From Prevotella communis (GTDB lineage Bacteria; Bacteroidota; Bacteroidia; Bacteroidales; Bacteroidaceae): 64,000 nt of DNA. Every line of letters starts with the position of its first letter. Position 1 is the stretch's first letter. The notes beneath the pieces were generated by a model. It was not told where the DNA came from. It worked only from the letters and a program-made list of their open reading frames with translations, and made no database searches. A program made the position numbers and the translations under genes. Shown here one piece after another: positions 5,080 through 48,226 of the stretch. The DNA lies in NCBI RefSeq assembly GCF_022024175.1, contig NZ_CP091794.1, positions 744,001 to 808,000 on the forward strand. Reading direction: 5' to 3'.

Positions 5080-6531
5080 ATGAGCGCTTTAACAAAAACA
5101 AAAATGTCCAACTTCCGTTGGGTTATTTGTGGCTTGTTGTTTCTTGCAACAACCGTAAACTACATGGACCGTCAGGTTCTCTCCCTGACGTGGAAAGACT
5201 TTATCTCGCCTGAGTTCCACTGGACTGATTCCAACTATGGTAATATCACGGCGGCTTTCTCAATCTTCTATGCCATTGCAAATCTCTTTGCAGGCAAGTT
5301 TATTGACTGGATGGGTACCAAGAAGGGTTACCTTATTGCCATCTTCGTGTGGTCACTGGGTGCCTGCCTGCATGCCGGATGTGGCTGGGCTGCCATGAAA
5401 TGGGGTGGCTATACGTCTATTGCAGAACTGGGTCAGCTGACCGGTGATGCTGCTGTGATGCTGGCAACCATCTCCATGTATATGTTCCTGGCCTGTCGTA
5501 TGGTGCTGGCGCTGGGTGAGGCTGGTAACTTCCCCGCAGCTATCAAGGTGACGGCAGAGTATTTCCCCAAGAAAGACCGTGCTTTCTCTACCTCTATCTT
5601 TAATAGTGGTGCCTCTGTAGGTGCACTGGCTGCACCAGCCACGATTCCCTTGCTGGCTCGTGCCTGGGGTTGGGAGATGGCCTTTATCATTATCGGTGTG
5701 CTGGGCTTCGTGTGGATGGGCCTCTGGATGTGGCTCTATGAGAAGCCTCACAAGAGTAAGTATGTGAATCAGGCTGAGCTCAACTATATCGAGCAGGATA
5801 ATGATATTGCCGAGGTGCAGAATAAGCATGAGGCAAAAGAGGAGAAGACAATCTCGTTCTGGAAGTGTTTCACCTTCAAGCAGACATGGTCATTTATCGT
5901 TGGTAAGCTGATGACAGATGGTGTGTGGTGGTTCTTCCTGTTCTGGGCTCCCGCCTATTTCTCTGACCAGTATGGCTATACCTCAGACTCATTGATGGGT
6001 ATCCTGCTTATCCTGACACTTTACGCTATCGTGACGGTGGTATCTATCGGTGGTGGTTATCTGCCTACCTATTTCGTTGAGAAGCGTGGTATGAATCCTT
6101 ATCTGGGCCGTATGCGTGCCATGTTGATTTTCGCCTGCTTCCCCGTGTTGGGACTGCTTGCACAGCCTCTCGGTGCTTATAGCGCCTGGTGGCCTGCTAT
6201 CCTGATTGGTATCCTTGGCGCTGGTCACCAGGCTTGGTCGGCCAACCTCTTCTCTACCATCGGTGATATGTTCCCCAAGTCAACTATCGGTACTATCACA
6301 GGTATCGGTTCAATGGCTGGTGGTCTTGGCTCTTTCGCTATCAATAAGGGTTCTGGTGAATTCTTCGACTGGGCTTCAAGTCAGGGTAGTGCGTTCACCG
6401 TGATGGGCTTTGAGGGCAAACCTGCTGCCTATATGGTGGTGTTCAGCATCTGTGCTGTGGCTTACCTCATCGGCTGGTTCATCATGAAGAGCCTTGTACC
6501 TAAGTACAAGCCTATCGTAGTTGAGGATTAA
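5080..6531 (+). CDS. ExuT-like hexuronate/anion MFS transporter
   Basis: A 483-residue MFS carrier of the anion:cation symporter family, which includes the hexuronate transporter ExuT. The TM1 motif NYMDRQ, the long hydrophobic segments and the central cytoplasmic loop (about 225-260, charged) fit a 12-TM inner-membrane protein. It follows kduI by 39 bp and ends at a strong shared terminator, so GatC-like, kduI and this gene probably form one transcription unit. The likely job is uptake of galacturonate or of unsaturated-uronate derivatives made in the periplasm; substrate is inferred from family and context. Start at ATG 5080 is assumed; an internal ATG at codon 9 is also possible. Confidence 0.88.
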   Translation: MSALTKTKMSNFRWVICGLLFLATTVNYMDRQVLSLTWKDFISPEFHWTDSNYGNITAAFSIFYAIANLFAGKFIDWMGTKKGYLIAIFVWSLGACLHAGCGWAAMKWGGYTSIAELGQLTGDAAVMLATISMYMFLACRMVLALGEAGNFPAAIKVTAEYFPKKDRAFSTSIFNSGASVGALAAPATIPLLARAWGWEMAFIIIGVLGFVWMGLWMWLYEKPHKSKYVNQAELNYIEQDNDIAEVQNKHEAKEEKTISFWKCFTFKQTWSFIVGKLMTDGVWWFFLFWAPAYFSDQYGYTSDSLMGILLILTLYAIVTVVSIGGGYLPTYFVEKRGMNPYLGRMRAMLIFACFPVLGLLAQPLGAYSAWWPAILIGILGAGHQAWSANLFSTIGDMFPKSTIGTITGIGSMAGGLGSFAINKGSGEFFDWASSQGSAFTVMGFEGKPAAYMVVFSICAVAYLIGWFIMKSLVPKYKPIVVED

Positions 6532-42184: not shown

Positions 42185-43945
42185 ATGAAAATTATGAAAA
42201 AGATATTTTCTGTTATGCTGGCAAGTGTTGCGATGGTCTCTTGTGTTGACACAGTTATCCTGCCCGACAATAAGACTGTCGATGATGACTTCTGGCAGAA
42301 GAAGAGCGAGGTGGATGCCGTGGTGTCAACTGCCTATGCACAGTTGCGCGACGAGACTGCTATACGCAATATGATTGTTTGGGGCGACTTCCGCTCTGAC
42401 GAATTGAATATGACAACCGGACTGCCTACTGGTGCTGCCTATCGTACAGCCCTGCAGCAGATTTATTCTCTCAATATCGAGACTGAGAATGCATTTACCT
42501 CTTGGTATCCTTTCTACTCGGCAATTAACTATTGTAACTTGGTGTTGGAAAAGGCTGAGAACGTGATTGCCGTTGACCCTGACTATACTCGTGGTGACTA
42601 TGAGGCCAACAAGGCCCAGGCATTGGCGTTGAGAGCTTTCTGTTACTTCTATCTGACAAAGGTGTTCCACGATATCCCCGTGACACCGGGTGCTTATATG
42701 AACAGCAGTGCCGACCTCAATGCTCCTCAGGCTACGCCCGACTCTGTGCTCACAATGTGTATCCGCGATTTGGAAGAGGCTTCAAAGAATGCTATTCCTG
42801 GTAATACCTATGGCGACTGGCGCGATAAGGGCTACCTGAATAAGGATGGTATCAATGCTGTGCTGGCTGATATCTACCTGTGGCGTGCTTCTGTGAACCG
42901 CGATGCTGCCGACTATCAGAAGTGTGTGGACTATTGCGATGCCATTATCAAGGCTAAGAAGCAGGCTTACGAGGAGAGTGGACAGCGTCGTCGCTGGGGC
43001 GAGGATGATGTAGAGAAGGACTATTACCTGTCTGATTATGATGACATGTATAGCGACCTCTTCGGTCAGAATGGTCAGAATGCTGACGAGAGCATCTTTG
43101 AACTGCAGTTCCGCAATTCAAATGCTACCAACAAGGGACTGGACCAGATGTATTACCGTTACAACAATGCCAGCAGCAACAGCTATGGCTACCTGAAGGC
43201 AGCACCCCTCTACGGTACGGTGAAGTCCGACGGTTCTGGCATTTGGTTCAATAGTGTGGACCAGCGTCTCTACGAGTATCTTTACGATGCCACCAGCTCA
43301 AGTGTTGAGCAGTTTGGCGTACGTAAGTTCGTTGCTACCGTCTCTGCCGGTGTGAACAATGCTGCCGACAGTCATCGCGAGACACGTGCCAACGTGATGC
43401 AGAACTGGATTCTGTATCGTCTTACAGACGTGATGCTGATGAAGGCCGAGGCCCTTGTTCAGCTCTATGAGTTTGAGAAGCAGGCAGCACTGGCTGACAG
43501 CCGAGCAGCCGATGAGACATACAATCAGGCTGCCTTCGATATCTGTAAGTTTGTGAACGACCGTGCGCTGTCGGATGCCAACAAGTCGTCATACGCTATG
43601 AAGTATAGCACTTATAAGGATAAGATGGAGTCGTTGGTACTGGCTGAGCGTGCACGTGAACTGTGCTTTGAGGGTAAGCGTTGGTTCGACCTGATGCGTT
43701 ATAACTATCGTCACATGACAACCAAGGCTGATCTGACAAAGAAACTGTCTGACAAGGACTATGCGGTGGTGCCAAATAGTTCGGAATTCTTTGAACTGGC
43801 CCTGCGCAAGTATGCTGTTCCTTCTGCTATGAAGGCAAAGATGCGTGATGAGCGCTATCTCTATATGCCTATCAATCAGGACGAGGTAGAGTTGAACAAA
43901 AACCTCCAGCAGAACCCTGTCTACAAATCAGCTGCGAAATATTAG
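42185..43945 (+). CDS. SusD/RagB-type glycan-binding lipoprotein, first copy
   Basis: A 586-residue outer-membrane lipoprotein that closes the SusC barrel and binds oligosaccharide. The lipobox is MVSC (Cys20; Cys17 if the start is the second ATG at 42194). The TPR-like helical core is recognised by AQALALRAFCYFYLTKVFHDIP, abbreviated here, and by LVLAERARELCFEGKRW and FDLMRYNYRH, with the usual C-terminal Y-K-S-A-A end. It pairs with the SusC just upstream. The specificity cannot be read from the sequence; the neighbouring lyases suggest RG-I oligosaccharides. Confidence 0.94.
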   Translation: MKIMKKIFSVMLASVAMVSCVDTVILPDNKTVDDDFWQKKSEVDAVVSTAYAQLRDETAIRNMIVWGDFRSDELNMTTGLPTGAAYRTALQQIYSLNIETENAFTSWYPFYSAINYCNLVLEKAENVIAVDPDYTRGDYEANKAQALALRAFCYFYLTKVFHDIPVTPGAYMNSSADLNAPQATPDSVLTMCIRDLEEASKNAIPGNTYGDWRDKGYLNKDGINAVLADIYLWRASVNRDAADYQKCVDYCDAIIKAKKQAYEESGQRRRWGEDDVEKDYYLSDYDDMYSDLFGQNGQNADESIFELQFRNSNATNKGLDQMYYRYNNASSNSYGYLKAAPLYGTVKSDGSGIWFNSVDQRLYEYLYDATSSSVEQFGVRKFVATVSAGVNNAADSHRETRANVMQNWILYRLTDVMLMKAEALVQLYEFEKQAALADSRAADETYNQAAFDICKFVNDRALSDANKSSYAMKYSTYKDKMESLVLAERARELCFEGKRWFDLMRYNYRHMTTKADLTKKLSDKDYAVVPNSSEFFELALRKYAVPSAMKAKMRDERYLYMPINQDEVELNKNLQQNPVYKSAAKY

Positions 43946-44112
43946 ACCCACCCCCTGCCCCTCCCTGAATGGAGGGGAGTAGGCAGACGTGTAAAATGAA
44001 AACAAATAATTAAAGATTATGAAACAAATAATTATAAATAAAACAAAGGAGTTGCTTCGTTTTGTGGTCTATATACTCCTCCCTCTCACAGGGGGAGGCT
44101 GGGTGGGGGTCT
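43945..44112. repeat. Inverted pair of G-tract palindromes around a start codon, copy 1
   Basis: The left element (43945-43980, GACCCACCCCC plus the hairpin CCCCTCC/GGAGGGG) overlaps the SusD stop codon. The right element (44076-44112, hairpin CCTCCCTCT/AGGGGGAGG plus GGGTGGGGGTCT) lies inside the next gene and encodes its signal peptide. The two are inverted relatives. The start codon 44019 lies between them. Confidence 0.85.
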
Positions 44113-46304
44113 CCTCTTGTACTGAGGAACCCGATGGCTCAAACCTCTTCTCTACAGACGATAAGACTATTGCAGAGTTGCTGCGCGACAGAAGCGATCT
44201 GACTGCTTTCTACCGTATCCTTGAGAAGGGTGGCTTCGACAAGTATATGGCAACCTATGGTGAGTACACCTGTTTTGCTCCGTTGAATGATGGTGTGAAT
44301 GTTTATCTCGACAGTCTGTATAATGACGAGTCGTACCTCATTTCAAAGGCAAAGGTTAAACATAATGGTATTAAGGAGGATGGCAACTGGGATAACCTGG
44401 ATGTGATGTCAAAGGTAGATCTGATGTCCGACTCGCTTTGTGAGGACATTGCACGCTTCCACCTCTCTGGTGAAGAGCATCTGCAGGTTGACCTCGACGG
44501 TACTACGACGACATGGACCACGATGAAGACCGGTCGTAGCATCCGTGTGGGTGTGTTCTTGGACAACGAGTATAACAATACCCATTTCCCTGATTTCGTG
44601 GGACTCACCAGTCTGAACGATATCTCAGCTATCATTGACGGTGATATAGAGGCCATCAATGGTGTGCTTCATGTATGCTCGAATGTGATTCCTCGTTCAG
44701 ACCGTACAACAGACGACCAGTTGCGTGTAGAGGGTGAGAAGGACCTGAGCATCTTCTATGCTGCTCTTGAGGCTACTGGTTATACGGATACACTGCTGAT
44801 TGAGAAGAAGTATAATGCCGACGGCACGGTGAAGACCTATGACCTGGGTACCAACCATAATGACCGTGACGGCAACCCACTTTATTATCCTAAGGAGTGT
44901 ATGATTAAATGGACCGTTTTTGCTGAGACCGACGACGTGTTCCGTGCTGCAGGTATCAATAACTTTGACGACCTGAAGGCAAAGTGCGTGGAGTGGTATG
45001 GCAACTGTGGTGCTTGGTATGACTATATCAACGAGAAGAATATCACCATCAGCACGGGCGACGACTATACGAACCCCTTCAACGTGGTGAATATGTTTGT
45101 GGCTTACCACATCTTGCGTGCAGGTATGCCTATCGACCGTATTGTCTATGAGAAGAACAAGCAGACGGATGGCTCATGGAACTTCTGCTTCGGCTATGAA
45201 CCTCAGGAGTATTTTGAGACAATGTTGCCCAATACCTTGTTGAAGGTGTGGGAGACGAATCCTAAGAGCACCAAGAACCTGTGGCTGAACCGCTATTTGT
45301 CAAACAATACGCTGACAAAGAAACTGGGACTCTGTGCCCTGGGCGATGGTGACGAAGACCACCAGCTCATCTTCAAGGGCGTGCCCGTGGATCGTGATAA
45401 CAGCGTGGAGACACTGAATGGTTATATCCACCGTATCAAGGGTATCCTGAAGTACGACCAGAATGCCAAGGACGGCCTCCACGAGCGTCTGCGCCTGGAT
45501 TCTTCTACCTTCCTCTATGAGTTGATCAATAATGGTCTGCGTGGTGCAACAGCTGCCGAGGTTAGCTCAATGAATGGTGGTGGTGATGGTAACCGTGTGG
45601 CTTTCCATAACACCTATTTCGATAATATCGTATGCTATAACCCCGGCACACTGCTCCGTTTCAACGTGATGGGTGCTTGGCGTGCACACAACTCAGACCA
45701 GTTCCAGGGATGGGATGTGTATGACTTCGCCATCAAACTGCCTCACGTGCCGACAGGTGACTACGAGTTGCGTATCATCTATCCCCCAATGGCTCGTGGT
45801 GGTCTGATGCAGTTCTACCTGGGTAACTCACCCAAGCAGTCGGACATGGTGGCTGTAGGTATTCCTTTCGATGCTTGTGCTAATCCTTACGAGGATGCTA
45901 CCATCGGTTATGAGGATCTGATTAACCGCGCCGACGACGAGACTTCTGACTGTGGCGTAGAGAGCGACCAGCGTATGCATGTACGTGGCTATATGCGTGC
46001 TCCGGCATCTTTCTCTCGTGGTACATACAATTCTGTTACCGATCCTCTGAGTTATTCGCCAGACGATATCTATTCTGCAGCTAGTCAGATTATCGGTTCT
46101 ACCAGCTGTCGTTCAGAGACTGGTTATGGTACGATGATGCTGCGCCGCATTATCACTGCCCAGCGTTTTGAGCAGGGTAAGGACTACTGGTTGCGCATCA
46201 AGAACCTGGTGAACGATACCAACCTGGGTTGGTCGTTCGACTTCGTGGAACTGGTACCTCTGGATATCGTGAACAGTCAGTCTATGTCTGAGGACTGGTA
46301 TTAA
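44019..46304 (+). CDS. FAS1-domain lipoprotein with repeat-derived signal peptide, second of three
   Basis: A 761-residue lipoprotein. The N-terminus ends in VILLPLTGGGWVGVSSC-like sequence (lipobox VSSC, Cys34), and its hydrophobic core is encoded by a G-tract palindromic repeat. FAS1 units show YTCFAPLNDGVNVYL (about 82-96) with AINGVLHVCSNVI, and a later TLNGYIHRIKGIL (about 467). The last 270 residues form a beta-sandwich, for example GDYELRIIYPPMARGG, that resembles a carbohydrate-binding module. Placed between SusD and a third FAS1 protein, it probably acts as a surface glycan-binding protein. It shares its first 30 residues, but little after them, with the next protein. Confidence 0.78.
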   Translation: MKQIIINKTKELLRFVVYILLPLTGGGWVGVSSCTEEPDGSNLFSTDDKTIAELLRDRSDLTAFYRILEKGGFDKYMATYGEYTCFAPLNDGVNVYLDSLYNDESYLISKAKVKHNGIKEDGNWDNLDVMSKVDLMSDSLCEDIARFHLSGEEHLQVDLDGTTTTWTTMKTGRSIRVGVFLDNEYNNTHFPDFVGLTSLNDISAIIDGDIEAINGVLHVCSNVIPRSDRTTDDQLRVEGEKDLSIFYAALEATGYTDTLLIEKKYNADGTVKTYDLGTNHNDRDGNPLYYPKECMIKWTVFAETDDVFRAAGINNFDDLKAKCVEWYGNCGAWYDYINEKNITISTGDDYTNPFNVVNMFVAYHILRAGMPIDRIVYEKNKQTDGSWNFCFGYEPQEYFETMLPNTLLKVWETNPKSTKNLWLNRYLSNNTLTKKLGLCALGDGDEDHQLIFKGVPVDRDNSVETLNGYIHRIKGILKYDQNAKDGLHERLRLDSSTFLYELINNGLRGATAAEVSSMNGGGDGNRVAFHNTYFDNIVCYNPGTLLRFNVMGAWRAHNSDQFQGWDVYDFAIKLPHVPTGDYELRIIYPPMARGGLMQFYLGNSPKQSDMVAVGIPFDACANPYEDATIGYEDLINRADDETSDCGVESDQRMHVRGYMRAPASFSRGTYNSVTDPLSYSPDDIYSAASQIIGSTSCRSETGYGTMMLRRIITAQRFEQGKDYWLRIKNLVNDTNLGWSFDFVELVPLDIVNSQSMSEDWY

Positions 46305-46305
46305 A

Positions 46306-46472
46306 GACCCACCCCCGACCCCTCCCTGCAGGGAGGGGAGTGGTTAGACATTAAATTGAAAATTAAAAATATAATAATATGAAACATCTAATATGTAATA
46401 AAACAAAGGAGTTACTTCGTTTTATGGTCTATATACTCCTCCCCCTCACAGGGGGAGGCTGGGTGGGGGTCT
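46306..46472. repeat. Inverted pair of G-tract palindromes around a start codon, copy 2
   Basis: The left element includes the perfect 20-bp palindrome CCCCTCCCTGCAGGGAGGGG (46319-46338). The right element has a perfect 9-bp stem CCTCCCCCT-CAC-AGGGGGAGG (46438-46458) plus GGGTGGGGGTCT and encodes the signal peptide. Start codon 46379 lies between. The order, spacing and reading frame match copy 1. Confidence 0.88.
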
Positions 46473-48226
46473 CTTGCTCCGACTATGATGACTACAATAC
46501 GGTGCCTGGTGTGTTTGGTGGTGACCAGACTGGAGCCAACAACACGTTGTGGGAGAATATCTCCAACGATCAGCAGCTGACCCGTTTTGCTGATCTTGCC
46601 CGTAAATGCAGTTTCTCGGAGGTTCTCAACAGTCCTCGTTTCTACACCGTATGGGCACCCGTTAATGATGCTATCAGCGATGCAGAGTATAACCGACTCA
46701 TGGCCAGCGACAGTGCTACCGTGCTGAAGCAGTTTATGCAGCAGCATATCACGGAGTATAACTATCCTGTTTCTGCTGCGCTCGACAGCACCACTATTGT
46801 GTCGCTCAACATGAAGCACCATCCCTTCACTCAGACCTCATTCGACGGCTACAGCTATAACGCTGTCAATATCGCCTCGAATAATGGTGTGATGCACAAA
46901 CTCAACGGTATGTCTGAGTTCCATAATAACCTCTATGAGAATATTGACAACCTGCAGGGATGCGACTCCATCAAGAAGTATATCCAGAAATATGACGAGT
47001 ACTACCTCGATGTCAATGCCTCTGTCATTGGTCCGTTGCGCGATGGTAAGCAGACCTATCTGGACTCTGTGATGAAGAAGCGCAATAATGTGATTCGTAC
47101 CATTATGAAAGCCGACCTGGAAGATGAGGATAGCACATTCTGCATGCTGATTCCCAACGACAAGGCATGGAACGCTGCTTACTCAGCCATCAATCCCTGC
47201 TACAACTATATTGCCAAGTTGGACTACATGGATCTTTCAAAGAAGAGCACCGTTGCCTCTTCTATCAAGGCTACCGATGCCAAGGCCGACAAACCATCAG
47301 AGGCTACAAGTGCACTGCAGGACTCGCTGACCTGCCGCAATATTGTAGACAACCTGGTGTTCTCTGCCAGCTATCCTCAGAACGGTCCGCTGTTTGGTCA
47401 GGGCACACTGACAAGCAAGGACACGGTGGTTACTACGAACGGACGTTATTTGCGTCATGCCGATAGGGTGCTGGACCACACGCTTGCCATCAATGAGATG
47501 AGTAATGGTATCACACGTACTATCGACTCGCTGACTTTCGACTCATGGAACAGCTATAATCCGGTGATTAGAACTATGCGTCCTGACGCAACGATGAAGG
47601 TGAACAAGTTGACCACGCACAATATCCCTCTGGATAGTCTGGCAGGTCGCGACAGTCTCTTCTCGAAGGTGCCTGCGATGTTCCATCAGTGGCTCTTCCC
47701 CAAAACTTCTCGTTTCTTCTCATACGTGGCTGTGGATAGTGCCAATGTCGAGGGTACTACAGGTAAGCCAGAGTTCAACTTCGCCCTCGAAGGCGTTCGC
47801 TCTGCTACCTATCATATCTATGTTGTTACCGTTCCTGCTCAGGTGGAGGAACCTGCGGCTGATGTGAAGCCTTACTACCTGCGCTTCTACCTCAGTTGGA
47901 CGGATGCTGCCAACAAGCAGCAGCTCACTGTATTGCCTCAGGGAGCCGCTAAGGATCTGGAGATGACCACAGACAATGGTACGGATACTAAGAAACTGAC
48001 TTGCATCGGCGACCCCGGTCGTGTGAATGTCTTCGACCTGGGTGAGTTCACCTTCCCTGTGTGCTACTACGGCCTGGATGCTTATCCCAGTCTGATGATG
48101 ATGCACACCAAGAGCTATACCTCTTCTGCTAACCGTAAGAAGTACGACCAGCAGATGCGTGTGGCAGGTGTTTATCTCGTACCAAAGGAGTATAACGATT
48201 ACTGGACTAACGCTTCTAATGAATAA
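46379..48226 (+). CDS. FAS1-domain lipoprotein with repeat-derived signal peptide, third of three
   Basis: A 615-residue lipoprotein. Its start, NKTKELLRFMVYILLPLTGG, leads to Cys33 in GVSC and is encoded by the second copy of the palindromic repeat. FAS1 H1-type motifs are YTVWAPVNDAISDAEY (about 83) and CMLIPNDKAWNAAY (about 253), with the H2-type SNNGVMHKLNGM near 170. The C-terminal third is beta-rich (FNFALEGVRSATYHIYVV). The stop codon overlaps the next SusC start by one base (TAATG), so the two are translationally coupled. It is probably a surface glycan-binding partner of the second SusCD pair. Confidence 0.78.
   Translation: MKHLICNKTKELLRFMVYILLPLTGGGWVGVSCSDYDDYNTVPGVFGGDQTGANNTLWENISNDQQLTRFADLARKCSFSEVLNSPRFYTVWAPVNDAISDAEYNRLMASDSATVLKQFMQQHITEYNYPVSAALDSTTIVSLNMKHHPFTQTSFDGYSYNAVNIASNNGVMHKLNGMSEFHNNLYENIDNLQGCDSIKKYIQKYDEYYLDVNASVIGPLRDGKQTYLDSVMKKRNNVIRTIMKADLEDEDSTFCMLIPNDKAWNAAYSAINPCYNYIAKLDYMDLSKKSTVASSIKATDAKADKPSEATSALQDSLTCRNIVDNLVFSASYPQNGPLFGQGTLTSKDTVVTTNGRYLRHADRVLDHTLAINEMSNGITRTIDSLTFDSWNSYNPVIRTMRPDATMKVNKLTTHNIPLDSLAGRDSLFSKVPAMFHQWLFPKTSRFFSYVAVDSANVEGTTGKPEFNFALEGVRSATYHIYVVTVPAQVEEPAADVKPYYLRFYLSWTDAANKQQLTVLPQGAAKDLEMTTDNGTDTKKLTCIGDPGRVNVFDLGEFTFPVCYYGLDAYPSLMMMHTKSYTSSANRKKYDQQMRVAGVYLVPKEYNDYWTNASNE

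Follow-up and report, generated by a model that had tools for sequence, protein, structure and literature searches.

Two segments within a 64,000-nt stretch of Prevotella communis DNA (the window) are very probably copies of a single leader-plus-signal peptide (SP) cassette framed by inverted GC-rich arms; each copy begins at the upstream gene's stop codon and extends as far as the lipobox cysteine encoded by the gene that follows (Table 1). Comparison with related genomes suggests that in rumen Prevotella this GC-rich palindromic repeat may have become an export tag for numerous surface lipoproteins, the block framed by its copies being passed between unrelated genes as one unit. The cassette would supply a ribosome-binding leader, the ATG and a positively charged n-region, and the translated right arm would supply the hydrophobic core of the lipoprotein SP.

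Table 1. Features of the SusD-FAS1 locus, in window positions
Feature	Position	Strand	Basis
SusD/RagB lipoprotein gene, upstream of cassette 1	42185..43945	+	Pfam SusD_RagB 1e-27
Left GC-rich arm, cassette 1	43944..43988	+	Model R1, 65 bits
AT-rich leader, cassette 1	43989..44018	+	Sequence
ATG (44019) and SP n-region, cassette 1 (MKQIIINKTKELLRFV)	44019..44066	+	Codon-position pattern, 38 gap-free cassettes
Right arm, cassette 1 (inverted copy); + strand translation is the putative SP core YILLPLTGGGWVGVS	44067..44112	-	R1, 61 bits; frozen Gly codons
Lipobox Cys codon, FAS1a (C34)	44118..44120	+	Sequence; Cys after right arm in collected cassettes
FAS1a lipoprotein gene, 761 aa	44019..46304	+	Fasciclin 1.2e-8
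Left arm, cassette 2, directly 3′ of FAS1a TAA stop	46305..46349	+	R1, 67 bits
AT-rich leader, cassette 2	46350..46378	+	Sequence
ATG (46379) and n-region, cassette 2 (MKHLICNKTKELLRFM)	46379..46426	+	Residues 1-32 88% identical to cassette 1
Right arm, cassette 2; + strand translation is YILLPLTGGGWVGVS	46427..46472	-	R1, 65 bits
Lipobox Cys codon, FAS1b (C33)	46475..46477	+	Sequence
FAS1b lipoprotein gene, 615 aa	46379..48226	+	Fasciclin 4.8e-9

FAS1a and FAS1b are the downstream neighbours of a SusC-SusD pair. In both of their cassettes an inverted pair of approximately 46-nt arms frames the leader, the ATG and 16 codons, and the lipobox cysteine comes after the right arm, which is translated as LLPLTGGGWVGVS. 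The TAG stop codon of the SusD gene (43943-43945) has its AG supplied by the left arm of cassette 1, where the closest relative (L154) possesses TAA. The two window copies share 86% identity over a 122-nt repeat that takes in the leader, ATG and right arm, and 73% over the left-arm stretch; from stop codon to cysteine the identity is 0.82, compared with 0.48 in each flank. Every part of the arrangement that the earlier note had described is present twice, at 43944-44112 and 46305-46472, and its leader of about 40 bp corresponds to 41 nt counted from GGAGGGG but to approximately 30 nt from the left arm to the ATG. Its observation of shared N-termini on differing mature proteins also holds: SP residues 1-32 are 88% identical, whereas the mature parts, both of which match Fasciclin, show only 29% identity over 55 aa (E = 0.002).

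The arms belong to a dispersed repeat family. Run against the 3.55-Mb genome, a covariance model built from the arm reports 56 matches at E<0.01; the true number may be higher, as 150 of the 1013 initial candidates were scored. CCCTCCC-N0-16-GGGAGGG occurs 15 times in the genome and its reversed control not once. Compensatory changes are found in the arm stem (11 covarying cells, versus 2.1 after shuffling), close inverted pairs have their GACCC ends outward in 18 of 18 cases, and many complete elements consist of arm, 11 nt and arm, or 103 nt. The earlier note envisaged the capture of an intergenic element; a dispersed repeat forming the SP core of lipoproteins is indeed what is found, but "intergenic" does not apply, since approximately 29 of the 39 arm clusters in this genome lie in frame within ORFs, with peptides like THPQPLPVRDGSGQTQ...LSTPLPHREGKGES. 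Conserved housekeeping proteins carrying arm inserts include GltB, UvrA and CbiJ-CbiD (cbiJD), among others; further arms lie at gene junctions, for instance 5′ of an OEP efflux lipoprotein and of an ABC ATPase. The earlier note proposed to seek the element elsewhere in the family; it recurs there as a repeat, with arms in 73 of 120 genomes examined within the genus and in 11 of the 30 genera sampled. Comparison with Rfam returned no family at its threshold (best 25.8 bits versus 200), and R1 matches below approximately 33 bits, such as that in a MutY-like protein (L114), are probably due to chance and were given no weight.

Several individual sites show what the arms may enclose or extend. 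In gltB (L095:7178-7383; G000:C1:3227178-3227383) two half-elements, a left and a right arm, frame approximately 30 native codons; relatives lack the gltB inserts, and some apparently have one side only. A second arm-framed segment is found in the N-terminal part of GltB in L265 and L267. The outer-membrane efflux lipoprotein at L110:3031-3163 has its SP n-region extended by a right arm (MKIKMNKILKKKASTPLHIGRSLGVGLLLSLMLTSC). At L094:2954-3083 the N-terminal residues of the ABC ATPase (LTTPLPRREGQEEGR) are arm-derived and the left arm begins at the upstream stop codon, which is the layout of the FAS1 cassettes, yet this protein is cytoplasmic. The arms at L111:3360-3438 and L113:3220-3295 carry an extra insert of approximately 30 nt, possibly a nested second repeat.

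Searching with the 34-residue N-terminus, as the earlier note had suggested for PLTGGGWVGV-type N-termini, revealed the cassette peptide in 37 of the 398 genomes searched within the genus, with up to seven copies per genome. Fifty-nine distinct cassettes were collected from 33 genomes; they stand before 12 mature-protein groups, with Pfam matches to SusD, FKBP_C, SusE, TIG, BACON, Peptidase_Mx1 and Fasciclin, so that the scope is many unrelated genes rather than two FAS1 lipoproteins. The recurring DNA order is stop codon, left arm, leader (mostly 15-40 nt), ATG, n-region, right arm and Cys, and almost every cassette collected has a strongly complementary left arm in front of it. This arm starts between 2 nt inside and 12 nt past the stop codon of the upstream ORF in 44 of the 50 cases measured; the six outliers (-27 to -97) look like pattern matches 5′ of the real arm, and nine further cassettes were unmeasurable. 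In L224 and L233 another GC palindrome, CCCCGCCTGACAGGCGGGG, takes the place of the left palindrome or occurs together with it. In total, approximately 90 lipoprotein genes with an arm-type SP core were collected, falling into three cassette lineages, of which the sister lineages employ other palindromes or frames (MSNIKYRN..LTSLPLGGLGWALTSC and MNI..ILAPLTLGGVGGGLLTSC). In genome G129, a near-identical n-region, MKRKSFQHKWSxL, precedes three or four unrelated proteins.

At orthologous loci, taken from 36 relatives that are mostly rumen MAGs, the leader and SP regions are highly variable. Between the window and L154, its closest relative, the flanks of the FAS1a block are 0.90 and 0.89 identical and the cassette 0.41, the SP of L154 being unrelated. 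For FAS1b, L162 carries lineage b while L161 and L185 possess an unrelated leader and SP, with flanks of 96-99% identity and a block at 0.37-0.38 (0.99/0.97 and 0.37 for L162 versus L185). Lineage b is also found in the FAS1b orthologs of L155 and L163, in the latter without a left arm, and lineage c in that of L157. Lineage c likewise precedes orthologs of the window SusD (VDTVILPD; L325, L342, L346), the SP of which is ordinary in the window. Replacement extends from the upstream stop codon to the Cys, and the modular spread advanced in the earlier note is borne out in that the cassette replaces the native leader and SP exactly.

Could ordinary paralogy account for the same data? FAS1a and FAS1b, together with the SusD genes, would then share an SP through gene duplication, the GC-rich repeats being incidental. 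The genes are adjacent, and homologous pairs from different genomes do exceed background in cassette similarity (0.674 versus 0.631). Nevertheless, this explanation is highly improbable: the flanks of the window genes are 48% identical against 82% for the cassette, unrelated SPs are found in orthologs whose flanks are 96-99% identical, near-identical cassettes stand before unrelated Pfam families, and a single orthologous position is occupied by three cassette lineages. As a complete explanation paralogy is refuted by the flank comparison. The mean similarity of cassettes before unrelated genes of the same genome is 0.673, compared with the 0.674 of different-genome homologous pairs, both values lying above the background of 0.631, and on these figures spread of the cassette and vertical descent are only partly separable. 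A permutation test of within-genome cassette similarity gave a weak result, which is not taken as proof; the extreme within-genome cases, namely the window and G129, argue for copying between genes.

Other FAS1 orthologs, those of L158, L166, L170, L175, L165 and L168, have SPs composed of short AT-rich tandem repeats (for instance TTACCTCTTACCTCTTACC, TTTTTACCCTTTTACC), located near position 6000 (FAS1a) or 8300 (FAS1b) of those loci. The tandem-repeat cassette IFNKVRKMAKGFLPFYLFTLLPLF belongs to FAS1a in L175 and to FAS1b in L170. The L175 leader carries the reverse complement and, among all of them, pairs best with its own SP.

The differences among 38 gap-free cassettes fall on codon positions 1/2/3 at 0.48/0.38/0.62 in the n-region and at 0.11/0.08/0.18 in the arm. 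This codon periodicity indicates that the n-region is translated. In the arm, the three Gly codons are GGG (53/54), GGA (54/54) and GGG (52/54), though GGG and GGA make up only 4.7% and 14% of the Gly codons in the mature parts; these frozen codons indicate nucleotide-level constancy of the stem, whereas different residues (Ala, Thr, Ile, Val, Leu) are specified by the loop codon that separates the stem halves, and the encoded loop remains mainly hydrophobic. Selection on the hairpin and recent homogenisation would explain the constancy of the stem equally well in these data. In charge and hydropathy the cassette SP is similar to native SPs; it has a net charge of approximately +3, a hydropathy window slightly lower than the native one (2.08 versus 2.43), Ser or Ala at -1 of the Cys in 83 of 91 cases and acidic residues past the Cys. 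By sequence, it thus presents the SPII features of charged n-region, hydrophobic core and cysteine.

The contrary reading, in which the palindromic segment is untranslated, the arm being 5′ UTR and the true start lying downstream, finds a precedent in misannotation, on account of which many REPs that are placed at the N-termini of ORFs may in truth lie outside genes (PMC3733652). It has next to no likelihood here. No other ATG occurs from 44019 to the FAS1a Cys, the SPs of the orthologs end at the same Cys, and the proteins would have no SP without the segment; the codon-position pattern of the n-region likewise favours a translated N-terminus, and the downstream start which would have undone the earlier note's proposal was not encountered.

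In each window cassette the predicted RNA fold pairs the arms into a single long stem (z = -4.2 and -5.4 versus dinucleotide shuffles). The earlier note suggested that such a hairpin might hide or present the start; the stem is predicted as described, but the effect on the start is not, the predicted accessibility being 0.58 for cassettes and 0.59 with the left region shuffled. Occlusion of the start codon by the left arm was rejected on this result. A regulatory hairpin, with the leader folded into a single stem by the inverted arms and lipoprotein translation thereby controlled or coordinated, is possible but unlikely. In its favour are the stability of the folds, the complementary left arm before nearly all cassettes, a start region predicted to be a little more accessible than that of FAS1 orthologs lacking the element (0.58 versus 0.51, p=0.001) and the co-inheritance of left and right arms, which match better within than across lineages (0/5000 permutations). 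Against it, besides the shuffling result, no left-right coevolution was found within one lineage (1754/5000 permutations equally good), the palindromic SP of L163 is kept without a left arm, and the same arms occur mid-ORF in housekeeping genes. Linked control of two FAS1 lipoproteins is not supported, given the unchanged accessibility, the lack of within-lineage coevolution and the many unrelated genes served by the cassette. A test of leader-SP complementarity over all FAS1 orthologs was significant (0/10000), and a general pairing rule was dropped because the strongest values come from the element cassettes.

Capture of the repeat as a secretion signal and its modular spread are thus supported by sequence comparison. 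The cassette would spread via recombination or copying between lipoprotein genes. Nearly any hydrophobic stretch works as a signal peptide, for which reason selection may retain only those junctions at which the upstream gene is properly terminated and the reading frame continues into the cysteine. We tentatively suggest, as a possibility of somewhat less than even likelihood, that a pair of arms is a mobile device able to frame any segment of 10-115 nt, be it gltB codons or leader, ATG and n-region, and that at a gene junction it becomes a transferable secretion module, a selfish palindromic repeat thereby acting as a natural SP shuffling system for Prevotella surface lipoproteins. It is also conceivable, albeit improbable, that the cassettes are REPINs with long spacers, mobilised by a RAYT (Y1 transposase). 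The palindromic units do occur in many copies and in inverted pairs with their GACCC ends outward (18/18), and one RAYT subclass of Bacteroidetes, 2.6, has atypical structures on its flanks (PMC6006769). However, no association of the Y1 transposase (PF01797) with arms is visible in a 24-genome sample, element-rich and element-free genomes having it alike; the PF01797 matches of the window's own genome are partial, and none is near an arm. Moreover, the arms are mostly intragenic, and the pairs framing native gltB codons are unexplained by simple REPIN insertion.

Intragenic palindromic repeats are usually seen as tolerated passengers. Here one arm, read in a chosen frame, would supply a presumed essential protein function in at least three versions, and the block that bears it appears to have been exchanged between genes and species with the mature proteins untouched; selfish-looking DNA would in this way supply and reshuffle protein secretion signals. 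The origin of new or replaced secretion signals becomes testable, and a reason is suggested for the leader and SP of Sus-type lipoproteins evolving much faster than the exported proteins. The cassettes might also find use in Bacteroidota as portable lipoprotein signals of natural origin. In the open-access literature no precedent was found for a palindrome-encoded, exchanged or transposon-derived signal peptide.

What is already known is the presence of intragenic palindromes at N-termini (PMC3733652, PMC10969869). The Rickettsia palindromic elements (RPEs) and other intragenic REPs are palindromic repeats lying in frame in many unrelated protein genes, sometimes N-terminally, where they add amino acids, and RPE-1-decorated N-termini are expressed in R. 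conorii (PMC3733652, PMC10969869). In-frame insertion into unrelated genes is equally seen with the Prevotella arms (gltB, uvrA, cbiJD and others). By features, the level at which the two were compared, as opposed to sequence, RPEs differ in being described as tolerated inserts and in the phylum of the host (PMC3733652, PMC10969869); the Prevotella arm, by comparison, would form a presumed essential part, SP core plus start codon, with the cysteine right after it and the block reused. With REPs, BIMEs and REPINs the arms share short many-copy palindromes, inverted head-to-head pairs, variable spacers and termini that may complete a TAG stop codon (PMC6006769, PMC3733652); they differ in being mostly intragenic, and no linked RAYT was found in the 24-genome sample. 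The arms resemble both RPEs and REPs but lack two defining features of the latter, namely the extragenic location and the GTAG/CGTC tag, neither tag being present at the ends of the arm consensus AGACCCACCCCC..GGGGAGTAGATAGnC. The terminal inverted repeats of MITEs are found in the arm pairs. The Coxiella QMITEs are small inverted-repeat elements that overlap ORFs and supply terminal residues (PMC5896051); a term search of that paper found no signal-peptide role, and QMITE ends carry direct repeats. The Bacteroidetes surface lipoprotein signal with LES similarly consists of an SPII signal, a cysteine and then S-D/E-rich residues (PMC5080379), whereas the hydrophobic core in Prevotella appears to be a translated palindromic repeat that has been exchanged between genes.
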